A stretch of DNA of 64,000 nucleotides from an uncultured Arthrobacter sp. (GTDB lineage Bacteria; Actinomycetota; Actinomycetes; Actinomycetales; Micrococcaceae): assembly GCF_947493765.1 (NCBI RefSeq), contig NZ_CANLSZ010000010.1:1-64000 (forward strand), read 5' to 3'. Shown here one piece after another: positions 7,230-18,702 of this stretch. The notes under the pieces are model-generated. The model was given only the letters and a program-made list of their open reading frames with translations. It did not search any database and had not been told where the DNA came from. The translations under genes were made by a program, and so were the position numbers. Within the stretch, counting starts at the first letter, position 1. Each line of letters opens with the position of its first letter.

Positions 7230-8120
7230 CTAGAGCGTGCCGTCGACGAGCTTGATGATCATGGAGCAGTCCTTGCCGCCCTGGCCGTCGTCGAGGAGTC
7301 GCTGGAAGAGCTGCTGGACGTGCTCGCCGATCTCAAGCGGCGTCCCGGTGTCACGTGCCGCGGCGATCGCGAGGCCGATGTCCTTGTTCGCCAGTTCGGC
7401 GGTGAAGGTCGGAGCAAAATCGTTGTTCGAGGCAGCCGTGTCCACGACGCCGGGAACCGGGTACCAGGTGCGAAGGGCCCAGCTGTCGCCCGAGGACACC
7501 GAGGCGATGTCCCAGAACACCTGCTTGTCCAGGCCGAGGCGATCGGCGAGCACGGCGCCCTCGGCCGTGGCCGCGAGATTGATGAACAGCATCAGGTTGT
7601 TGCAGATCTTCGCGGCCTGCCCCGTGGTGGCGCCACCCGTGGGAATGATGTTCCTCGCCATGGGCTCGATCAGGGCGGTGGCGTCCTTCACGGCGCCCTC
7701 CTCGCCCCCGATCATGAAGGTCAGGGTGCCGGCCTTCGCGCCGCTGATCCCACCCGAAACGGGCGCGTCGACGAAGCGGAAGCCCTTCTCCGCCGCCGCC
7801 TCGTGGAGGGCGGCGGCTGACTCGATGTCGATCGTGGAGGAATCGACCAGGAGCGTGGAGGTGTCCGCGTGCGCGAGGACGCCGTCGTCCCCGAGATACA
7901 CGGCCCGGGCGTGCTCGCCCTTGGGTAGCATCGTGAAGAGGACGTCGACGCCGTCGACCGCTTCGGCGATCGAGGAGACCGCGGTGAGTCCGCCGGCCTC
8001 GGCTGCCGCCAGTGCGTCGGCATTCAGGTCGAACCCTCGCACCGTGTGATCTGCATTGACGAGATTCGCGGTCATGGGACCGCCCATGTTGCCGAGTCCG
8101 ATCCAGCCGATCGTTGCCAT
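7230..8120 (-). CDS. mmsB: 3-hydroxyisobutyrate dehydrogenase
   Basis: The 296-residue enzyme converts 3-hydroxyisobutyrate to methylmalonate semialdehyde, the substrate of the next gene's product. It has the dinucleotide loop 'IGWIGLGNMGGPM', the substrate signature 'VDAPVSGGISGAKAG' (about residue 118) and the catalytic Lys in 'QAAKICNNLML' (about 169). ATG 8120-8118 is chosen because GGGAG lies seven bases upstream; a longer reading adds 13 unlikely residues. It is first in the mmsB-mmsA operon and divergent from the LysR gene. Confidence 0.93.
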   Translation of the reverse strand: MATIGWIGLGNMGGPMTANLVNADHTVRGFDLNADALAAAEAGGLTAVSSIAEAVDGVDVLFTMLPKGEHARAVYLGDDGVLAHADTSTLLVDSSTIDIESAAALHEAAAEKGFRFVDAPVSGGISGAKAGTLTFMIGGEEGAVKDATALIEPMARNIIPTGGATTGQAAKICNNLMLFINLAATAEGAVLADRLGLDKQVFWDIASVSSGDSWALRTWYPVPGVVDTAASNNDFAPTFTAELANKDIGLAIAAARDTGTPLEIGEHVQQLFQRLLDDGQGGKDCSMIIKLVDGTL

Positions 8121-8206
8121 CTTCAAGCTCCCTTGCTCGTGAGATTCCGTCCTCCCCACCTTCTCCCGCTGCTAGGGTGCGATCAAGGGAAGAATTCGTA
8201 GACGCG

Positions 8207-8222
8207 ATGCGCATTAATGCAC
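8207..8222. promoter_or_regulatory. Candidate LysR operator in the divergent promoter
   Basis: GCATTAATGC at 8211-8220 is a perfect 10-bp palindrome with an ATTAAT core, flanked by further partly symmetric bases. It lies 23 bases before the LysR start and about 90 bases before mmsB. This is where an autoregulated LysR activator would bind. Confidence 0.5.
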
Positions 8223-8244
8223 ACCACTGGGTGGAAGGGGCTCG

Positions 8245-9150
8245 ATGGTCGACTTCCGCCGCCTGCCCAGTCCCGACGATCTCCTGATCCTCCTCACCGT
8301 CGCGAGGCTCGGCCGGTTCAACGCGGTCGCCGAGACCCTCGGCACCACGCACACCACCATCTCCCGCCGCATCCTCGCGCTGGACAGGCAGCTCGGCGGC
8401 CGGACCCTGGAGCGGACGCCGCAGGGCTGGGAGCTGACGGCGCTCGGTGTGGATGCCGTGGCGGCGGCGGAGGTGATCGAGACCAGCCTCGGTGAACTCG
8501 ATGCCCGCCTGTCCGACTCCGACGTGCTGACCGGGCTCATGCGGGTCAGCGCGCCCGACGGTTTCGGCGCACGCTTCGTCATGCCGGCCCTGGTGGAGAT
8601 CCAGCGGGAGAACCCGCGGCTCGACGTCGAGCTGCTCAGCGCCACCCGCAAGGCGAGCCAGAACCGCTCAGGGGTCGATCTCGAGATCGTGGTGGGTCGC
8701 ACCGAGTCCGCCAACGCGGAGCCGATCTTCCTGACCAACTACTTCCTGCGCCTCTACGCCAGTGCCGGGTACGCGGATCGCCGTGGCCTGCCCGGTCGCC
8801 TCGAGGACATCCGCCACCACAGCTTCGTCTCCTACGTGGAGTCCGCGCTGCAGGTGTGGGAGCTCGGCCACCGCTCCTCGCAGCTGCCCCTGCCGGTCAC
8901 GTCCTTCCAGGCCACGAGCATCTTCGCGCAGGTGGACGCCGTCCACGCCGGCGCGGGTATCGGGCTCCTGCCGAGCTTCATGGTCCCCAAGGGAAGCGGT
9001 CTGGTGCCGGTCCTCCGCGAGGACTTCCACCGCCAGCTGCCCATCTGGGCCATCGCGCGCCCGGAGTCGCTGCGGTCCACCGCGGTCCAGGCCGTGGTGG
9101 CGGCCGTCCGGCACCAGATCACGGAGCGGGCGGGCGAGCTCGGCGCCTGA
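8245..9150 (+). CDS. LysR-family transcriptional regulator
   Basis: The 301-residue product has an N-terminal winged helix-turn-helix, 'DLLILLTVARLGRFNAVAETL' followed by 'HTTISRRILALDRQLGGRTLER', and a periplasmic-binding-like effector domain of normal length. AAGGGG lies just upstream of ATG 8245. It is divergent from mmsB-mmsA with a palindrome between them, so it most likely controls valine or 3-hydroxyisobutyrate catabolism and its own expression. The effector is unknown. Confidence 0.88.
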   Translation: MVDFRRLPSPDDLLILLTVARLGRFNAVAETLGTTHTTISRRILALDRQLGGRTLERTPQGWELTALGVDAVAAAEVIETSLGELDARLSDSDVLTGLMRVSAPDGFGARFVMPALVEIQRENPRLDVELLSATRKASQNRSGVDLEIVVGRTESANAEPIFLTNYFLRLYASAGYADRRGLPGRLEDIRHHSFVSYVESALQVWELGHRSSQLPLPVTSFQATSIFAQVDAVHAGAGIGLLPSFMVPKGSGLVPVLREDFHRQLPIWAIARPESLRSTAVQAVVAAVRHQITERAGELGA

Positions 9151-9173
9151 CGCCCGGCGCTCGTCGCCCGCAC

Positions 9174-9225
9174 CACGCAGGGGCGACGACGGCGCGGACC
9201 TGCCGCCGTCGTCGCCCCCTGCGTG
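9174..9225. terminator. Strong bidirectional hairpin between convergent genes
   Basis: The arms at 9174-9194 and 9204-9225 pair over 21 bases with a single extra C. They enclose a nine-base loop and read CACGCAGGGGCG... on the left. The hairpin lies between the ends of the LysR gene and the MFS transporter gene. No T-run follows on either strand. Confidence 0.7.
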
Positions 9226-9245
9226 GCTCCCGTGTGGTGCCTGCG

Positions 9246-10628
9246 CTACTTCTTCCTGCCCGCCAGGAGCTCGGCGGTCCCGCGCGCATCCGCCTCGTCG
9301 ACGTCGAGCAGCGAGATGCCGCGGGTCTCGCGGAGGGCGAGGACGGCGACGATCGTCACGCAGCAGGCGAGCAGCAGGTAGATGGCCACCGGCGTCGACG
9401 AACCGTAGTCACGCAGGAGGGTCGCGGCGATGATCGGAGCCAGCGAGCCGGCGACGATCGAGGTGACCTGGTATCCCAGGGAGACTCCCGAGTAGCGCAT
9501 GCGGGTGGGGAACATCTCGGCCATGATGGCCGGCTGCCCGGCGTACATCAGCGCGTGGAACATCAGTCCGATGGTGACGGCCGCGAGGATGATGAAGTCG
9601 TTACCGGTGTCCATCATGGGGAAGGCGAAGAATCCCCAGGTGGCGCCGAGGACGGCCCCGGCGAGATAGACCGGCTTGCGGCCGAGCTTGTCCGAGTAGC
9701 GCCCCACGATCGGCACGGCGCAGAAGTGCAGGGCATGGGCCACGAGCAGCAGCAGCAGGATCTTCGTGCGGTCCTCCCCGACCTCGGTGCTGAGATAGGT
9801 GATGCTGAAGGTGACCACGAGGTAGTACAGGATGTTCTCGGCGAAGCGCAGGCCCATGGCGGTGAAGACGCCGCGCGGGTAGCGCTTGAAGACCTCGACG
9901 ACGCCGTAGCCCTTGGCGCCCTCGACGACGTCCTTCTGTGCGTCGAGGAAGATCGGGGCGTCACTGACCTTCGTGCGGATGTAGTAGCCGATGATGACGA
10001 TCACCGCGGAGAGCCAGAAGGCCACGCGCCAGCCCCAGCCGAGGAAGGCGGCGTCGTCGAGGACGGCGGACAGGCCGAAGAGGACACCCGTGGCGAGCAG
10101 ATTGCCCATGGGGACCGCCGACTGTGGCCAGCTGGCCCAGAAGCCGCGACTCTTGCTGGGGCTGTGCTCGGCGACCAGCAGCACGGCTCCACCCCATTCA
10201 CCGCCGACGGCGAAGCCCTGGATGAAGCGCAGCACCACGAGCATGCCGGGTGCCCAGTAGCCCACCACGTCGAACGTGGGCAGGCAGCCCATGAGGAACG
10301 TGGAGGCACCCACGAGGATGATGCTGACCTGCAGGAGCTGCTTGCGTCCGTACTTGTCGCCGAAGTGGCCGAAGACGATCCCGCCGATGGGGCGCGCCAC
10401 GAAGCCGACGGCGTAGGTCAGGAAGCCCGCGATGATCGCGTCGAGCTCCGACTCGGCGTTCGGGAAGAAGACGCTGGCGAAGACGAGCGTGGCGGCCGCG
10501 GCGTAGAGAAAGAACTCGTACCACTCGACCACGGTGCCGGCCATCGACGCCGCCACGACCTTCTTCAGCCCCGACTCCTTGACGTCGGGCTCCTGCCGTT
10601 GCGGGGGTGTGTGCTGCGCTGAACTCAT
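9246..10628 (-). CDS. MFS transporter, metabolite:H+ symporter (MHS) family
   Basis: The 460-residue protein has about 12 hydrophobic segments and the MHS hallmarks: 'GTVVEWYEFFLYAAAATLVF' in the first helix, 'RPIGGIVFGHFGDKYGRKQ' after helix two, 'LRFIQGFAVGGEWGGAVLL' in helix four, and a second 'GRYSDKLGRKP' loop. Members such as ShiA, KgtP and ProP import organic acids or osmolytes with protons. The substrate cannot be read from sequence. AAGGAG precedes ATG 10628. A 14-bp palindrome about 155 bases upstream may be its operator. Confidence 0.92.
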   Translation of the reverse strand: MSSAQHTPPQRQEPDVKESGLKKVVAASMAGTVVEWYEFFLYAAAATLVFASVFFPNAESELDAIIAGFLTYAVGFVARPIGGIVFGHFGDKYGRKQLLQVSIILVGASTFLMGCLPTFDVVGYWAPGMLVVLRFIQGFAVGGEWGGAVLLVAEHSPSKSRGFWASWPQSAVPMGNLLATGVLFGLSAVLDDAAFLGWGWRVAFWLSAVIVIIGYYIRTKVSDAPIFLDAQKDVVEGAKGYGVVEVFKRYPRGVFTAMGLRFAENILYYLVVTFSITYLSTEVGEDRTKILLLLLVAHALHFCAVPIVGRYSDKLGRKPVYLAGAVLGATWGFFAFPMMDTGNDFIILAAVTIGLMFHALMYAGQPAIMAEMFPTRMRYSGVSLGYQVTSIVAGSLAPIIAATLLRDYGSSTPVAIYLLLACCVTIVAVLALRETRGISLLDVDEADARGTAELLAGRKK

Positions 10629-10781
10629 CCTGGCTGCTCCTTCGAAGTCTTCGTCGACTCACATCGTCGTGTGCGGCGTCGCTCGCCGTCGTGCTCTCGA
10701 TTGTGACCGGGAGCACACCGGGGCAGTTCGAGTATGACGGCGGGCAGGGGCGCGATCAACGCTCATTCGCGCAGAGCAAGT

Positions 10782-10795
10782 GTGCGTATACGCAC
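10782..10795. promoter_or_regulatory. Perfect 14-bp palindrome upstream of the MFS gene
   Basis: GTGCGTATACGCAC is fully self-complementary. It lies between the RCC1-like gene and the MFS gene, both leftward, at a distance that fits an operator for the MFS promoter. The GTATAC core recalls FCD-type GntR or TetR sites. No regulator gene is adjacent. Confidence 0.45.
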
Positions 10796-10840
10796 GGTCT
10801 CCTCTCCGTGGACGTGGAGCTCCGGGCGAAGAGGGGCTCC

Positions 10841-11701
10841 TCAGGCGCCGGCTGGGCGCACGAGCCACGACGACGTGACGCACTGGCCGTCGTCATCACA
10901 CCCCGCAGCCAAGACCGATCCGTCCGCGCGAACTCCGAGCGTATGGGCGGAACCCGTGGCGACAGCGACCACGCCGCGCCAGGACGACACCTCGCCCTGC
11001 CCCTGGCTGTTGTCGCCTGCGGCCAGCACCCGACCGTCAGCGGTCACCGCGACCGTGTGGAAGCTGCCCGCTGAGACCGCGACCACGCCACGCCACGCCC
11101 CTGTGTCCGGAGCGCTCGCCGCTCGGTCGCCGGCCACGAGGACGCGGCCCTCCCCGGTGAGCGCGACCGTATGCAGGCAGCCCGCGTCGATCGCGCGAAG
11201 ATCCCGCCAGCCCGCTACCTCACACTGGCCCCTCCGATCGTTCCCGACCGCTACCGCCGTACCGTCCGAGCGCAGTCCCACGGAGTGCCAGTCCCCCGCG
11301 GCGACGGCGACCAGGTCCTCCCACGTTTCGATCTCGCAAGCTCCCTCACCGCGCCGACCTGCCGCTCGAGCCGTCCCGTCCTCCAGGACCGCGAGGGTTC
11401 TCCGCCACCCGGCGGCGATGCCTGCTACGCCCGTCCAGTCGTCGACGTCGCACTGCCCCTTGCTGTTCCAGCCTCGCGCGACGACGGTGCCGTCCGCACG
11501 GAGGCCGACGGTGTGCGAGCGGCCTGTGTTCGGCGCCGTATGTACGTTCCCTGCGGCCACCGCGACGATGCCGGTCCAGTCCCCCACCCGGCACTCATCC
11601 GCTTCCGGCCTGCCCGCGGTCAGTACCGAGCCGTCGAGTGTCACGCCGATGGAGTGGCGACGGCCGGCAGCGACGACAGCACCGCCTCGAATGGTGGTCA
11701 C
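10841..11701 (-). CDS. RCC1-like seven-repeat beta-propeller protein
   Basis: The 286-residue product consists of seven consecutive RCC1-like units of about 38 residues with the pattern W-x-x-[IV]-x-A-[IV]-x-A-G-x-x-H-[ST]-[VL]-x-[LV]-x-x-D-G-x-[VA]-x-A-x-G, often ending GQC.V. Seven units are enough for one closed seven-bladed propeller. The second blade has about nine extra residues ('TAPNTGRSH'). There is no signal peptide or other domain, so it is probably a cytoplasmic binding scaffold. GTG 11701-11699 is the likely start, although its ribosome site is weak; a GTG further upstream is possible. Confidence 0.75.
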   Translation of the reverse strand: MTTIRGGAVVAAGRRHSIGVTLDGSVLTAGRPEADECRVGDWTGIVAVAAGNVHTAPNTGRSHTVGLRADGTVVARGWNSKGQCDVDDWTGVAGIAAGWRRTLAVLEDGTARAAGRRGEGACEIETWEDLVAVAAGDWHSVGLRSDGTAVAVGNDRRGQCEVAGWRDLRAIDAGCLHTVALTGEGRVLVAGDRAASAPDTGAWRGVVAVSAGSFHTVAVTADGRVLAAGDNSQGQGEVSSWRGVVAVATGSAHTLGVRADGSVLAAGCDDDGQCVTSSWLVRPAGA

Positions 11702-11770
11702 CGACGAATTGTCCCAGGGTCGGAGCTCCGGCCGAAAGAGGTGGTGCGTCACGCCGCGGAGAACCACCAG

Positions 11771-11827
11771 TAGACTTCGAACATGCTGGCCGTTGATGCC
11801 CCGACTTCGAAGAAGATGCGCCTGTGA
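11771..11827 (+). promoter_or_regulatory. -10 element with leaderless 14-codon leader peptide
   Basis: TAGACT at 11771-11776 matches the TANNNT -10 consensus. Six bases later an ATG (11783) opens a 14-codon frame, MLAVDAPTSKKMRL, whose TGA (11825-11827) overlaps the GTG start (11824) of the dehydrogenase gene as GTGA. The spacing is that of a leaderless transcript, so the ribosome would start at the 5' end, read the leader and restart at the GTG. GAAGAAG inside the leader could serve as the internal ribosome site. Confidence 0.5.
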
Positions 11828-12870
11828 CGCTGCAGGAAGAGAAGCTCGCCCACGACGGATTGCTGCAGGAACTGGCTGATCGGACCGCAGCAGCACGAGG
11901 TTCCGTTCCGGACGCCCTCTCCCTCGCAGCCGACCTCGGAACCACTGCCCCACTGCCCGGCACCGGGCGGACGCCTGACATCTGGCGCATCCTGAGCACC
12001 CTCGCAGCAACCGATCTGTCCGTGGCGCGTGCGGTGGAGCCCCACCTCGACGCCCTCGCCATCCTCGACCAGGCGGGGCTGTCCCATCTGCATCGTGCCG
12101 GCGCCGCCGGGACCTGGGGGGTCTTCGCCGCCGAAGGACCCGGCGTGGCCGTCAGCGCGTCGACCGGCCCCGACGGCTGGATCCTGACCGGGACCAAACC
12201 CTGGTGCTCGCTCGCCGACCACCTCGATCACGCGATCATCACTGCGCACGTGGGCGACGGCGGGCGCCGAGCCTTCGCCGTCGATCTCCGCGCCGCCGGT
12301 GTCGTCGTCGACCCGCCCGACGCCTGGGTGAGTCGCGGCCTGACCATGGTGACCAGCTGCTCCGTGCACCTCGACGGCGCCGCCGCGACGCCGGTGGGCG
12401 GGACGGACTGGTACCTCCACCGCGACGGCTTCGCCTGGGGCGGGATCGGCGTCGCCGCGTGCTGGCTGGGCGGCGCCCTCGGGATCGCCAGGACCATGCT
12501 CGCCGCGGCCGGGCGCCGCACCCCGGACCAGGTGGCACTTCTCCACCTGGGCCGGGTCGACGCCGCCCTCCACGAGGCCAGGACCGTGCTCGGGGACGCC
12601 GCGGACGCCGTCGACGCCGGCCGTGCGTCCGGTCAGGACGGCGCCCTGCTCGCGGCCCGGGTGCGGTCCTCGGCCTTCCGCTGCGCCGAACTGGTGCTCG
12701 ACGCGGCCGCGCACGGCCTCGGACCCGCGCCCCTCGCGTTCGACGAGACCCACGCCGCACGGGTGGCCGATCTGACGCTCTACCTGCGCCAGCACCACGC
12801 CGAGCGTGACGACGCCGCGCTCGGGGATAGAGTCCTCGCCCGGTCCGCCGAGGGGAACCCGGAGTGGTGA
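11824..12870 (+). CDS. Acyl-CoA dehydrogenase-like flavoprotein (divergent)
   Basis: The 348-residue product has the acyl-CoA dehydrogenase layout: a helical N-domain, a middle beta domain ('GTWGVFAAEGPGVAV', 'GWILTGTKPWCSLADHLDHAIITA') and a C-terminal helical bundle. It is shorter than typical members and lacks a clear catalytic Glu in the usual context, so it may handle a carrier-bound or unusual substrate. GTG 11824 overlaps the leader-peptide stop. Its 3' end overlaps the next gene by 7 bases (GTG 12864). With the deacetylase-methyltransferase and glycosyltransferase genes it forms a tight operon whose product is unknown. Confidence 0.8.
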   Translation: MTLQEEKLAHDGLLQELADRTAAARGSVPDALSLAADLGTTAPLPGTGRTPDIWRILSTLAATDLSVARAVEPHLDALAILDQAGLSHLHRAGAAGTWGVFAAEGPGVAVSASTGPDGWILTGTKPWCSLADHLDHAIITAHVGDGGRRAFAVDLRAAGVVVDPPDAWVSRGLTMVTSCSVHLDGAAATPVGGTDWYLHRDGFAWGGIGVAACWLGGALGIARTMLAAAGRRTPDQVALLHLGRVDAALHEARTVLGDAADAVDAGRASGQDGALLAARVRSSAFRCAELVLDAAAHGLGPAPLAFDETHAARVADLTLYLRQHHAERDDAALGDRVLARSAEGNPEW

Positions 12871-14231
12871 CCTTCGCGCACGACGACCACAGCACACCGG
12901 AGAGCCACTGGAGGAGCTGGGAGCAGGATCGCTCCGGTGCGGATCTGCAGATCGAAGCCCTGTTCGACGGCCGCCTCCCGTCCCGCTTCATCCTGCTCGC
13001 CGCCCACCCCGACGACGAGACGCTCGGTGCGGGCGGGCTCCTCGCCAGGCTGGCCCGCGAGGGCGTACGGTGCGACGTCGTCGTCCTCACCGACGGCGAG
13101 GCCTCTCATCCGGACTCCCCCACCTACTCGCGGACTCAGCTGGCCGAACTCAGGCGTACGGAAGTGGCCAATGCGGTGCAGGTGCTGGCTCCGGCCGCGG
13201 CGCTGTGCTTCGAGGGCCTGCCCGACGGCGGCATCACGCAGGAGGACGCCGCCGCGGCCCTCACCCGGCTCCTGGGCGAGGGCGAGGCGCCGCGCACCCT
13301 GGTCGCAGCTCCGTGGCGGCACGACGGCCACACCGATCACGACGCCGTCGGACGGGCAGCCGCAGAGGTGTGCGAAGCCCACCAGACACCCCTGCTCGAG
13401 TACCCGATCTGGCTCTGGCACTGGGGTACGGCGGAGGAGCAGGCGGACCAGCTCGCAGACCTGTCACTGCACCACCTCGACTCCGACGACCACACCCGCA
13501 AGACCTCGGCCCTGGCCACCCACGCCTCGCAGGTGACCCCGCTGTCCGCAGCACCCGGCGACGAGGTGCTCCTCTCGGCCGACTTCCTGGAGCACTTCGA
13601 CCGCAACTACGAGGCCTTCTTCGTCTCGGAGGGGTCCTCCACCTTCGAACGGCTGCATCAGGACAAGGCCGATCCGTGGGAGGTGGCCGAGCGCTTCTAC
13701 GAACGGAGGAAGCGCGCACTCACCATCGCCAGCCTGCCCCGGGAGCGCTTCTGCCGCACGTTGGAGGTCGGCTGCTCCGTGGGAGCACTGACCCGGGAGC
13801 TCGCGACCGTCTCGGACAACGTCCTGGCCCTCGACACCAGCGAGACCGCTGTCCGCCGCACCGCCGAGGTGCTGAGCACGAACGACGCCGCCGAGGCCCG
13901 GCTCGCCACCGTGCCCCGCGACTGGCCCCGCGAGGACGGACCGTTCGACCTCGTGGTGCTCTCCGAGACCGGGTACTTCCTGTCCTCCGACCAGCTCGAC
14001 GAGGTGATCGCGCTGATCCTCGCGTCGCTCGACGAGGACGGCGTGCTCGTCCTCTGCCACTGGCGCCACCCGATCGAGGGGTGGGAGCTCGACGGCGCCG
14101 ACGTGCACGAGCGCGTCCGCCGGGTCCCGGAACTGACCACCCTCGCCCTGCACACGGAGGAGGACTTCCTCCTCGAGGTCTTCGTCCCGCCCCCCGCCCA
14201 CTCCGTGGCACGACGCGAGGGCCTGCTGTGA
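12864..14231 (+). CDS. Bifunctional PIG-L deacetylase / SAM methyltransferase
   Basis: The 455-residue fusion has two domains. Residues about 40-230 form a PIG-L (LmbE-like) Zn-dependent N-deacetylase, with 'AAHPDDETLGAGGLLARL' (metal-binding H-P-D-D) and 'RHDGHTDHDAVG'. Residues about 250-440 form a class I methyltransferase, with SAM loop 'LEVGCSVGALTREL' (about 300), 'LALDTSETAVRRT' and a post-motif 'DLVVLSETGYFL', closest in style to NodS-type enzymes. One chain could de-N-acetylate an amino sugar and methylate the product. GTG 12864 is favoured, with AGGGG eight bases upstream; GTG 12867 is an alternative. Confidence 0.88.
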   Translation: MVTFAHDDHSTPESHWRSWEQDRSGADLQIEALFDGRLPSRFILLAAHPDDETLGAGGLLARLAREGVRCDVVVLTDGEASHPDSPTYSRTQLAELRRTEVANAVQVLAPAAALCFEGLPDGGITQEDAAAALTRLLGEGEAPRTLVAAPWRHDGHTDHDAVGRAAAEVCEAHQTPLLEYPIWLWHWGTAEEQADQLADLSLHHLDSDDHTRKTSALATHASQVTPLSAAPGDEVLLSADFLEHFDRNYEAFFVSEGSSTFERLHQDKADPWEVAERFYERRKRALTIASLPRERFCRTLEVGCSVGALTRELATVSDNVLALDTSETAVRRTAEVLSTNDAAEARLATVPRDWPREDGPFDLVVLSETGYFLSSDQLDEVIALILASLDEDGVLVLCHWRHPIEGWELDGADVHERVRRVPELTTLALHTEEDFLLEVFVPPPAHSVARREGLL

Positions 14232-14914
14232 TCCCCGGCCAGCTCGCCGTCGTCCTGCCGGCCCGCGACGAGGAGGACTGGCTGCCGGCCTGCCTCGCGG
14301 ACCTCGATGCCGCGCGTGAGCACCTCCAGAGCACCATCCCGCGCACCCCGGTGAGCATCACCGTGGTGCTGGACCGGTGCACCGACGGCTCGGCGAGCGC
14401 TGCACGCAGCATCGCGGGCGTCTCGGTCCTCGCCGGCAACTTCGGATCCGTGGGGGCCGCGCGCGACGCCGGTGTGCGCTTCGCGCTGGCCCGCTCGCAC
14501 GCGCTGCCGGAGCGGACCTGGATCGCCAACACCGACGCCGACACGCTCGTGCCCCGGGAGTGGCTCGTCCGGCACCACCGGCTCGCCGTCCACCACGATC
14601 TCGTCCTGGGGACCGTCCGCCCCACCCTCACCCCGGAGAACGCGGAACGGTGGCAGCGGTGGGCGGACGACTACGTGGCCGCCGACGGCCACCACCACAT
14701 CCACGGCGCGAATCTGGGGATCAGGGGCAGCACCTACCAGGAGGTGGGCGGCTTCGCCCCCCTCACCGAGGACGAGGACGTCGATCTGGTCGAGCGCGCG
14801 AAGCTCTGCGGTGCCGCCTGGATCGCGTCGGGACAGCTGCAGGTGACGACGTCGTCGCGCACCGTCGGTCGTGTTGCCGCAGGTTTCTCGACCTATCTGC
14901 GGATGCTCGGCTGA
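14228..14914 (+). CDS. GT2-family glycosyltransferase
   Basis: The 228-residue GT-A enzyme has the N-terminal 'LAVVLPARDEEDWLPACLADL' nucleotide-sugar fold, the metal-binding DxD in 'IANTDADTLVPREW' (about residue 103), and 'EDEDVDLVERAKLCG', an ED-type catalytic motif. No membrane helix is seen. Its GTG overlaps the stop of the previous gene as GTGA, so it is translationally coupled. It probably adds a sugar to the product of the deacetylase-methyltransferase and dehydrogenase, or to a shared acceptor. No terminator is obvious downstream. Confidence 0.88.
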   Translation: MIPGQLAVVLPARDEEDWLPACLADLDAAREHLQSTIPRTPVSITVVLDRCTDGSASAARSIAGVSVLAGNFGSVGAARDAGVRFALARSHALPERTWIANTDADTLVPREWLVRHHRLAVHHDLVLGTVRPTLTPENAERWQRWADDYVAADGHHHIHGANLGIRGSTYQEVGGFAPLTEDEDVDLVERAKLCGAAWIASGQLQVTTSSRTVGRVAAGFSTYLRMLG

Positions 14915-15031
14915 CGGCGCACAGTGGCGTGTCCCGTTTTGTCCACAGCATCTGCTAGACATTCAGTGTCACCTTTCGAACCTCGTGCCTGGAGCGGGTC
15001 GCAGTGACCACTCATGGGGGATGAGGACAGG

Positions 15032-16255
15032 ATGCGATTCGGGGACATGCTGCGGCGGGCACGCAATGCCAAGGGACTGAGTCAGGCGGAGTTGGGATCG
15101 GGGATCTATCCGCCCCACTTCGTCTCCCTCCTGGAGCGAGGCCAGCGCCAGCCCTCCGCCGAGATGGTGCGGCACTTCGCGGCGGTGCTCGGCATGGAGG
15201 CGCAGACCCTCTCCTGGTGGGTGGAGCCGCCGACGGTGGAGGACGCACCCGCCCTTGCCGCGGCGATGTTCGCCGCCAATCATGCGCGCGACCTGCAGGA
15301 TGCCGCCCTGGCGGCGTCGGAGGCCGAGTACGCCGCCGGCCTGGCCCGCGACCAGCGCAACGCACCTGTCTGGTGGGACATGTCCATGCTGCAGGCGCAG
15401 TCGCTGATCACCGCCGGCAGGCTGGCGGAGGCAGAGGCCGTCCTGCTGCGGATGGACGGATCCTCACTGCTGGTGGCCGGCCCCGCACTCCACTCGGTGG
15501 TGCAGGGGCGCCTGTCCACGATCGCCCGGACCACCGGCCGCCTCCTCGAGGCGCTCGACCTCGCACACCGGTCGGTGGAGTCGGCCTCCCTGCTGCCCGA
15601 GCACTCCCCCACCCGGCTCCAGGCCGCCTTCATCCTCATCGCAGCTCTCTCGGTGAAGGGCCAGCTCGATGCCGCCTGGGAGGTGGCGACCGGGCTGGAC
15701 GTCCGGGACGTGCCTGCTGTGCCGTCGCTGCTGGTGGCCCGTGGGGCATGGGCCATCGGCAATGTCGCATTCCGCCGCGGTGAGATCGAGGTCGGCCGGG
15801 AACAGCACGCGCTGGCCGCACGCCTGCTCTCGCCGCAAGCGGATCTGGAGGCGTGGGCCGAGTTCCACCGGTCCAGCGCCATGTTCGCGCTGCAGGCAGG
15901 AATCGCCGACGAGACCGTGCGGACCTCGCTCGACCATGCGCGGGCAGGTGCGCAGGTCCTGCAGAATCCGCGCTACCGGTTCGAGGTCATGATCGCGGAA
16001 GCGGGCTTCGCCCTGCTGCGCGAGGATCTCGAGACCGCGGGCGAGCTGCTGACGGAGGTCGACGGCGGCCGCGCGCTCCTCGACTTCGAATCGACCCTCG
16101 ATCTCGAGATCTGTGTGGGCAACTACTTCGTGGCCCGGAGCTCCGTGGCGCGGGGGGTCCGGCATCTGCTCGAGGCCGCACGCCTCTGCACGGAGGCCGG
16201 CGCCGACGAGAAGGCCCATGAGCTGATGGACCAGGTGGGCCTCCTCACCGCCTGA
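15032..16255 (+). CDS. XRE-family regulator with TPR-like sensor domain
   Basis: The product (407 residues from ATG 15032; ATG 15014 adds six) begins with a helix-turn-helix, 'FGDMLRRARNAKGLSQAELG' then 'FVSLLERGQRQPSAEMV'. A long alpha-helical region of TPR-like Ala/Leu-rich repeats follows to the end. This layout is typical of peptide- or protein-responsive regulators of the Rgg/PlcR/SARP-associated type. GAGG five bases before 15032 favours that start. It follows the dehydrogenase/PIG-L/GT2 operon in the same direction after about 115 bases and may regulate it. Its stop abuts the convergent channel gene. Confidence 0.85.
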   Translation: MRFGDMLRRARNAKGLSQAELGSGIYPPHFVSLLERGQRQPSAEMVRHFAAVLGMEAQTLSWWVEPPTVEDAPALAAAMFAANHARDLQDAALAASEAEYAAGLARDQRNAPVWWDMSMLQAQSLITAGRLAEAEAVLLRMDGSSLLVAGPALHSVVQGRLSTIARTTGRLLEALDLAHRSVESASLLPEHSPTRLQAAFILIAALSVKGQLDAAWEVATGLDVRDVPAVPSLLVARGAWAIGNVAFRRGEIEVGREQHALAARLLSPQADLEAWAEFHRSSAMFALQAGIADETVRTSLDHARAGAQVLQNPRYRFEVMIAEAGFALLREDLETAGELLTEVDGGRALLDFESTLDLEICVGNYFVARSSVARGVRHLLEAARLCTEAGADEKAHELMDQVGLLTA

Positions 16256-17017
16256 TCACGGTCTTGCGGCCTGATCAGGTCCGGTGGGGCCGTCGGCTGG
16301 ACGCTCCCGGGCTTCCGGTGGCTCGACGACCACTGCCTCGGCCGGTGCGGGGTCCGCCCCGCGGAGGAAGAAGGCGCCGAGCGAGCCTGCCAGGGTGGCG
16401 AAGACCCCTACCGAGTACACGGCCAGCAGGACCTGGAGGATCCGCCCGAACGTGGTCGAGGACGTCAGGCCGGACCCCGTGATGGTCGCCATTGCGGATT
16501 CGAAGAGTGCGTCGGCGTAGGACTCATGGGCTCCGGTGGCATAGAGCAGCTGGCTCGAGGCGAGGATGACGACGGCGGTGACCGCGATCAGCCACCCGAT
16601 GCGGCTCGAGAGGAGGCGCCCCGCGGACCGTGAGCCACGGACACCGGCGGAGATGATCCCGCCGAACCGTGCGAGCCTCGCCACCCTGACGAAGCGGAGG
16701 GCCTGCAGTGCACGGAAGAAGCGCAGGAACGGCACGAGGAGGAACACCACCTGCCACCAGTTCTTCTTCCAGAAGCGACCGCTGAAGTGGGCGATGTAGG
16801 CCCGGAGGAGGAATTCGGAGACGAAGACCACCCAGAACACCCACCCGAGCACCGTGAAGGTGGTCACCATGCCGGGGTCGGTGGCCAGGAGCTGCCCGAG
16901 GACGACGAAGAGGAAGATCACCCCGAGGATGCCCATGGGTTTGTCGAGCCGGGCCGCGACGACCTCGGCGCGCCACTCGCCCTCCTCGAGGGACGCCGTC
17001 GTTCCCTCGTCGGTCAC
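16256..17017 (-). CDS. Voltage-gated channel-like membrane protein with atypical pore
   Basis: The 253-residue protein looks like a six-helix ion channel. It has several hydrophobic segments, an S4-like arginine ladder 'RFFRALQALRFVRVARLARFG', a pore helix and a final segment 'LQVLLAVYSVGVFATLAGSLG'. The K+ selectivity filter TVGYGD is replaced by 'ATITGSGLTSS', so classical potassium selectivity is doubtful. The C-terminus is Pro/Glu-rich. Its GTG start overlaps the stop of the DUF421 gene by four bases, so the two are co-expressed. The gene ends directly against the XRE gene. Confidence 0.75.
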   Translation of the reverse strand: MTDEGTTASLEEGEWRAEVVAARLDKPMGILGVIFLFVVLGQLLATDPGMVTTFTVLGWVFWVVFVSEFLLRAYIAHFSGRFWKKNWWQVVFLLVPFLRFFRALQALRFVRVARLARFGGIISAGVRGSRSAGRLLSSRIGWLIAVTAVVILASSQLLYATGAHESYADALFESAMATITGSGLTSSTTFGRILQVLLAVYSVGVFATLAGSLGAFFLRGADPAPAEAVVVEPPEARERPADGPTGPDQAARP

Positions 17018-18087: not shown

Positions 18088-18188
18088 CATGTCCGGCGAC
18101 GCGTGGCCGACGCCCTCGGGCCTGCTCCATGGTGGGCCACCGGGCGCGCTGCGGAGCAGAGCCTTGCATCGTTCCCAGTAGCCGGGCT

Positions 18189-18702
18189 CGCAGAGTGGGA
18201 AGGAACGCCCCTCCCCACCGAGCGTCCTCGAGCAGTGGGAGGGAGCACCCTCGCCAAGTGGAGCATCCCGTCGATCCCAACGAACGAGCCTGAGCAGTGG
18301 GAGGGATCACCCTCGCCGAGTGAAGCAGCCCATCGATCCCAGTGCACCGGCTCGAGCAGTGGGATCGAACGCCCCTCCCCACCGAGCGTCCTCGAGCAGT
18401 GGGATCGAACGCCACGAGGAGTAGGGCATCCCATCGATCCCAACGAACGAGCCCGAGCAGTGGGAGGGAGCACCCGGGCCGCGTGGAGCATCCCGTCGAT
18501 CCCAGTGCACCGAGCGTCCTTGAGCAGTGGGATCCAACGCCGCACGGGGTAGAGCATCCCGTCGATCCCAACGAACGAGCCTGAGCAGTAGGAGGGAGCA
18601 CCCCCGCGGAGTGGAGCATCCCGTCGATCCCAACGAACGAGCCTGAGCAGTGGGATCGAACGTCCCTCCCCACCGTGCGTCCTCGAACAGTGGGACAGAA
18701 CA
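18189..18702. repeat. Array of about ten diverged intergenic repeat units
   Basis: The motif GAGCAGTGGGA, followed by GGGAGC or TCGAAC, recurs about ten times (for example 18230, 18292, 18353, 18393, 18454, 18522, 18583 and 18644), spaced about 40 or 61-68 bases apart. Between copies come GAGCATCCCGTCGATCCCA and ACGAACGAGCCT modules, or a GTGCACCGAGCGTCCT variant. TGGGATCGA and TCGATCCCA are inverse complements, so neighbouring units can form hairpins. Nothing here looks coding. Together with 18090-18188 and 18703-18832 it makes up an 800-base stretch without a gene. Confidence 0.8.

Follow-up and report, generated by a model that had tools for sequence, protein, structure and literature searches.

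Analysis of a 64,000 bp window from an uncultured Arthrobacter sp. (assembly GCF_947493765.1, contig NZ_CANLSZ010000010.1, positions 1 to 64,000) revealed three overlapping genes that encode four activities: a flavoprotein with the acyl-CoA dehydrogenase (ACAD) fold, a fusion of a PIG-L deacetylase with a NodS-related methyltransferase, and a glycosyltransferase of family 2 (GT2). The three genes form a conserved, probably translationally coupled cassette, and their conservation as a set is far above chance. This compact four-activity set occurs on chromosomes and plasmids of Actinobacteria, Proteobacteria (including Acinetobacter) and Deinococcus. It is proposed here, tentatively and at a little under an even chance, that the cassette encodes a stress-associated pathway for an amino-sugar glycoside, comprising glycosyl transfer, de-N-acetylation, N-methylation and flavin-dependent oxidation. 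An undescribed amino-sugar pathway of deacetylation, methylation and glycosyl transfer had already been suggested in an earlier note on this DNA. The present data support that suggestion and add to it the relationship to NodS, the affinity of the flavoprotein with flavin monooxygenases, the distribution across several phyla and an association with stress genes. Literature searches found no study of the cassette, and passages of PMC12029717, PMC10763947 and PMC3534580 contained nothing on it.

Organization and conservation of the cassette

All three genes are located on the plus strand. The flavoprotein gene (11824-12870, 348 amino acids) was assigned from its open reading frame (ORF), a weak PF02770 match, the AlphaFold2 (AF2) model, PDB and Foldseek matches and a comparison of motifs; inspection of the ORF placed its start at a GTG codon at 11824, rather than at 11771. 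The second gene (12864-14231, 455 amino acids) overlaps the first by 7 bases and carries the PIG-L and methyltransferase domains in one frame, an assignment based on the ORF, on Pfam matches and on the fused or adjacent state of the two domains in relatives. The third gene (14228-14914, 228 amino acids), identified by Pfam, conservation and predicted fold as a GT2 glycosyltransferase with a single GT-A domain and a DxD motif, overlaps the second by 4 bases. This arrangement agrees with the three overlapping genes described in the earlier note. The fusion protein was 97% identical in its closest relative among the matches listed, and the window genome is Arthrobacter echini-like.

The gene neighborhood was compared in 80 loci, which are the best 80 of 139 relatives and are all titled as actinobacteria, except for L034, titled Planococcus. 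Carriers of the cassette among the relatives include Arthrobacter agilis and Microbacterium oleivorans. The four activities were counted with profiles built in this analysis, and the counts take in partial matches. The order flavoprotein, PIG-L, methyltransferase and GT2 on one strand was found in 77 of the 80 loci, including two with interrupted flavoprotein frames (L015 and L029) and two cut by contig ends (L044 and L052). The remaining three comprise two loci cut by a contig end (L016 and L079) and one, L012, whose flavoprotein gene has been broken in two by a local rearrangement. In this last locus, from Arthrobacter agilis UMCV2 (7339-12282), the C-terminal part of the flavoprotein adjoins the fusion gene, while the N-terminal part is found on the opposite strand at a distance of about 3.5 kb, as if by local inversion. 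According to the earlier note, the proposal would be refuted if the three genes were rarely neighbors elsewhere; since they are neighbors in 77 of 80 loci, this test does not refute it.

Junctions between genes, with start codons picked by script, were measured in 72 of the 80 loci. The flavoprotein/PIG-L junction overlapped in 71 of these, in 54 cases by exactly 7 bases, and the second junction overlapped in 59. Among 30 further loci of the same class, available with short flanks only, 22 contained all four activities in the window order and one more contained all four with the glycosyltransferase first; L094, tallied as lacking a glycosyltransferase, has an inverted GT2 gene about 2 kb away, beyond a catalase gene. 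Some match to the query was present in 288 of 296 genomes, a figure that reflects mostly PIG-L or methyltransferase paralogues and is not a count of cassettes. The distances among the three proteins over the 72 loci were correlated (r 0.82-0.87, reached by none of 999 permutations), as is expected from shared ancestry alone, and this correlation was not used as evidence.

Beyond these loci, 18 plasmid regions were chosen by the authors from the matches; the Sinorhizobium meliloti region (L123) holds a PIG-L relative only and was left out, and thus 17 were counted. All four activities were found in 12 of the 17, from Actinobacteria, alpha-, beta- and gamma-Proteobacteria and Deinococcus: Kitasatospora (an actinobacterium), Bradyrhizobium, Sulfitobacter, Komagataeibacter, Paracoccus, Sphingomonas, Jiella, Pandoraea, Comamonas, Acinetobacter, Legionella and Deinococcus. 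Five of these showed the window order, four had the glycosyltransferase inverted, two had it first, and one (Legionella lytica, where the flavoprotein is annotated as hypothetical) had the flavoprotein last. That the set is kept together though its order varies argues for a single pathway. The deacetylase and the methyltransferase are separate annotated genes in all 12 regions, whereas in the window and its nearer relatives they form one fused gene.

The other five plasmid regions lacked a local glycosyltransferase (L088, L127 and L132), PIG-L (L092), or both PIG-L and the flavoprotein (L128). In one case, the Rubrobacter plasmid L092, a polysaccharide deacetylase (PF01522, the NodB family; 92 bits) precedes the flavoprotein gene, and no PIG-L was found locally. 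In two other genomes without PIG-L (L114/L144 and L121/L143), no polysaccharide deacetylase was detected among the seven flanking ORFs scanned. Regarding Deinococcus, a TnpB-family gene is located between the flavoprotein and PIG-L genes of D. wulumuqiensis (L132, 5807-7159), and the flavoprotein carries about 430 extra N-terminal residues (L088:3178-4470, L132:3427-4720). This extension gave no Pfam match at 0.001 (best 0.014), and its L088 part gave no PDB match. In addition, a 305 kb contig filed as Acinetobacter phage MD-2021a (L148, CAKLQF020000002.1) contains ordinary metabolic genes together with the whole cassette, and is probably bacterial DNA under a phage name.

Features of the encoded proteins

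Both domains of the second protein scored above the Pfam cut-offs (PF02585 PIG-L, 92.3 bits against 28.2; Methyltransf_25, 41.5 bits against 27). In the PIG-L (LmbE) de-N-acetylase domain (12993-13370, plus strand), the HPDDE and D-HxDH residues were invariant in 28 relatives; these include H48, P49, D50, D51, H156 and H159 of the HPDD and HxxH motifs, presumably the catalytic residues of PIG-L. Its PDB relatives were TT1542, diacetylchitobiose deacetylases, BshB and MshB. The class I S-adenosylmethionine (SAM) methyltransferase domain (13659-14069, plus strand) has its DPW...YE motif just upstream of and within the domain. A profile built from 18 cassette methyltransferases matched PDB entry 4isc (3.6e-62) and NodS (3ofj, 8.3e-30), while the next named family, the phosphoethanolamine N-methyltransferases, reached 1.6e-17; NodS is thus the nearest functionally named relative. 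The NCBIfam NodS model was matched by all 18 methyltransferases, which share with NodS a DPW...(Y/F)E motif, followed in most of them by YY(L). The window protein scored 46 bits against the curated NodS equivalog model, whose cut-off is 300, and it is therefore related to NodS and not NodS itself.

The glycosyltransferase matched PF00535 with 36.2 bits (cut-off 23.3), and the two aspartates of its DxD motif, D103 and D105, were both invariant in 52 GT2 relatives. The predicted structure is a single GT-A domain with a predicted local distance difference test (pLDDT) score of 96. Fucosyl-, N-acetylglucosamine (GlcNAc)-, rhamnosyl- and mannosyltransferases were among its fold neighbors, and the fold search singled out no donor or acceptor specificity, the matches spanning many specificities.

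The AF2 model of the flavoprotein showed the three-domain ACAD fold (pLDDT 95), while its sequence matched ACAD models weakly: the middle domain PF02770 gave 27.4 bits, below the curated cut-off of 33.3, PF00441 gave 21.4 bits (cut-off 22.4), and no ACAD Pfam model besides PF02770 was detected at E 0.001. Some distant members exceeded the PF02771 cut-off of 22.9, with 44.5 and 28.8 bits. Comparison with ACADs encoded in the same genome revealed that the EG(T/S/D) site of L133, L135, L136 and L138 corresponds to RQH in the window protein. The ACADs L134 and L137 likewise have no glutamate at this site, and thus one type of true ACAD may carry its catalytic glutamate elsewhere. In the lists of 90% conserved positions from 35 and 58 flavoprotein members, the only glutamate was E72, located in the N-terminal helices. 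The flavoprotein therefore lacks a conserved ACAD catalytic glutamate, and its description as a dehydrogenase in the earlier note was not borne out.

The best PDB profile matches of the flavoprotein were 5z8t/5gj7 and DszC, followed by MsuC, DnmZ and a nitrososynthase interleaved with true ACADs. The five best Foldseek targets were 5gj7 (titled a putative ACAD), 5z8t (titled a flavin-containing monooxygenase), DszC, DnmZ and KijD3, and class D enzymes and ACADs tied as fold relatives in VIA-align. SfnB was the NCBIfam model most often matched by members of the family (18 of 35). No flavin reductase is encoded inside the cassette. The window genome has three PF01613 genes elsewhere, a PF01613 flavin-reductase gene lies 4-6 kb from the cassette in 9 of the 80 loci, and an FAD/NAD oxidoreductase gene is found within the Rubrobacter cassette. 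The flavoprotein is class D flavin-monooxygenase-like and may use reduced flavin from a reductase encoded elsewhere.

Genomic context

The association with stress genes was analyzed in 43 genomes picked by the authors from the matches listed for an adjacent PIG-L and methyltransferase (G014 was omitted; for G084 and G068 the listing showed the methyltransferase only). Catalase genes were found within 10 kb of the cassette in 5 of the 43 genomes against 0.29 expected, and ferritin genes in 4 against 0.38 expected, where the expected counts assume uniform placement and the related genomes are not independent. Ku and OtsA showed no enrichment, with none within 10 kb of the cassette in the 43 genomes. 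PfkB, used as a partial control, was not seen within 10 kb among the matches listed, as judged by eye. In the 80 loci, the ferritin family recurred at 15, in several arrangements and partly by descent (label verified on two members). Ku was beside the cassette in 9, all in one Arthrobacter subgroup and partly by descent (label verified on one member), and also in Bradyrhizobium. Trehalose genes were near the cassette in 4 of the 18 plasmid regions (L087, L089, L125 and L131), among them Comamonas (L089), where otsA-ACAD-PIGL-MT-GT-otsB form a run in which each gene overlaps or abuts the next. Catalases were near the cassette in plasmid regions L090, L125, L126 and L128. In the window genome, catalase, ferritin, Ku and OtsA are located on contigs other than that of the cassette.

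Expression data are available for a set of genes with the same product names in Acinetobacter baumannii. In Table 2 of PMC5660220, ACICU_02432-02435 (glycosyltransferase, SAM methyltransferase, LmbE and acyl-CoA-dehydrogenase-related protein) are listed as one operon ("e"), whose expression by RNA-seq was 31- to 62-fold lower in two colistin-dependent mutants; otsA/otsB and a catalase were also lowered in those mutants (PMC5660220). Section 8 of that paper has no discussion of the operon, and the locus tags 02432 and 02434 each appear a single time in the paper, in the table. The Acinetobacter contig L148 carries four genes in an order matching operon e, all of which fit the cassette profiles.

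Downstream of the GT2 gene there is a weak terminator-like hairpin (14916-14933, plus strand), identified by consensus match only; two sites of this type were found in 11600-16400, against a mean of 0.4 in shuffled sequences. Beyond it, 99 bases from the GT2 gene, begins a gene for a helix-turn-helix protein of XRE type (HTH_31 by Pfam; 15014-16255, plus strand). The earlier note had reported an XRE protein with tetratricopeptide repeats (TPR) that follows the cassette as its own regulator. An HTH_31 protein does follow, while Pfam detected no TPR in it, and it stands beside the cassette in 9 of the 80 loci only, all from close Arthrobacter. A role as general regulator of the pathway was therefore rejected, and the gene is regarded as a lineage-specific neighbor, not a member of the cassette.

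Just before the cassette, on the minus strand, an ORF (10844-12010) encodes an RCC1-repeat protein with four PF13540 repeats, the true start of which is probably further in. Further along the window, degenerate tandem repeats of about 62, 128 and 163 bases occupy 18167-18655, between a DUF421 gene and a weakly DUF2092-like gene, and are traversed by several predicted ORFs.

Discussion

In the pathway proposed here, the GT2 enzyme would glycosylate a small acceptor with an N-acetylated amino sugar, for which GlcNAc or a related sugar is the likeliest candidate; the N-acetyl group would then be removed by the PIG-L domain, and the NodS-related domain would N-methylate the freed amine with SAM. 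The fusion of the two domains would couple these two reactions within a single protein. Oxidation of the product would fall to the flavoprotein, probably acting as a class D flavin monooxygenase supplied with reduced flavin by a reductase encoded elsewhere. The outcome may be an N-methylated, perhaps N-oxidized, glycoside of an amino sugar, formed in response to desiccation, osmotic or oxidative stress. The order of these steps, the substrate and product, N- rather than O-methylation, monooxygenation and the physiological role are all inferred.

The flavoprotein might instead be a true dehydrogenase or desaturase with an unusual substrate, for example an acyl chain carried by the amino sugar, and the product would then be a membrane glycolipid. 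This is unlikely, though it deserves real weight: the protein has no glutamate at the usual catalytic site and no conserved glutamate other than E72, and neither an acyl-CoA ligase nor an acyltransferase is found among the four conserved members. Tailoring of the cell envelope or of an exopolysaccharide, in which a glycan would be modified with O- or N-methylated glucosamine and no free small molecule would be made, was also considered rather unlikely. Methylated glucosamine occurs in glycans, and chondroitin, heparosan and hyaluronan synthases and wall-teichoic-acid glycosyltransferases are among the fold relatives of the GT2 protein, but no polymerase, flippase or exporter was seen among the 40 recurring neighbor families listed, a few of them named by Pfam, and on plasmids the cassette is a compact four-gene unit. 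A catabolic or detoxifying set that degrades an amino-sugar compound is improbable. Although deacetylases and flavin monooxygenases are found in degradation too, and the commonest NCBIfam match of the flavoprotein, SfnB, acts in sulfur acquisition, a glycosyltransferase and a methyltransferase indicate synthesis, and there is neither a transporter nor a hydrolase among the four conserved members.

The product might also be a secondary metabolite, such as an antibiotic, that carries an oxidized amino sugar: the nitrososynthases DnmZ, KijD3 and 3mxl, whose substrates are the amino sugars of antibiotics, are among the closest folds to the flavoprotein, and the gene arrangement resembles that of tailoring genes. 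This too is quite improbable, since no polyketide or peptide synthase core was seen among the recurring neighbor families listed, and the near-fixed order in 77 of 80 loci is unlike that of most antibiotic clusters. A thiol pathway of the mycothiol or bacillithiol type, to which the relatives MshB and BshB of the deacetylase domain might point, is the most improbable of all: the domain scored 32.6 bits against the MshB model (cut-off 224.35) and 48.8 against BshB2 (cut-off 195), and the cassette holds no cysteine ligase. Because Mca (441 bits, cut-off 277) and MshC (611 bits, cut-off 485) are encoded elsewhere in the window genome and the deacetylase is far under the MshB cut-off, this role was rejected, in accordance with the earlier note, which had held that the methyltransferase and dehydrogenase do not fit the mycothiol pathway.

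Existing annotation treats the genes of the cassette one by one, as dehydrogenase, LmbE, methyltransferase and glycosyltransferase. A bolder and doubtful extension of the amino-sugar glycoside pathway is that it yields a new class of stress protectant across several phyla, an N-methylated, N-oxidized glucosamine glycoside (betaine-, N-oxide- or nitrone-like). Its synthesis would require a deacetylase and N-methyltransferase pair resembling that of Nod-factor synthesis, together with an N-oxygenase of amino sugars, and would be regulated jointly with trehalose and catalase. If the cassette does make a protectant, the short list of trehalose, betaines and mycothiol would gain a further solute or redox metabolite, and survival of desiccation and oxidative stress could be tested with one small operon.

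Comparison with known systems

Operon e of A. baumannii has four products of the same names in matching order within one co-regulated operon, a likeness judged by product names, and it consists of four separate genes where the window has a fusion (PMC5660220). The class D flavin monooxygenases (DszC, SfnB, MsuC and the nitrososynthases DnmZ and KijD3) share the ACAD fold with the cassette flavoprotein, which lacks the ACAD catalytic glutamate and finds its best sequence matches among them. It differs from them in being shorter (348 amino acids), in its C-terminal RQHHAERD motif and in the absence of a reductase from the cassette, and true ACADs score close behind. The mycothiol and bacillithiol pathways resemble the cassette in their use of a glycosyltransferase together with a PIG-L deacetylase on an amino-sugar glycoside; their glycosyltransferase belongs to family GT4, whereas that of the cassette is GT2, and in the cassette methylation takes the place of cysteine ligation.

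In Nod-factor synthesis, NodS N-methylates the glucosamine that NodB has de-N-acetylated, and the cassette would follow the same logic, a deacetylase freeing the amine of GlcNAc for N-methylation by a methyltransferase of the NodS family. Its deacetylase differs from NodB in being a PIG-L protein fused to the methyltransferase; a flavoprotein is added, and neither NodA nor NodC is among the four conserved members. PDB entry 4isc, presumably from structural genomics, is titled only "Methyltransferase" and its chain spans the methyltransferase alone; as it belongs to the same family as the cassette methyltransferase, a structure for this family is already available.

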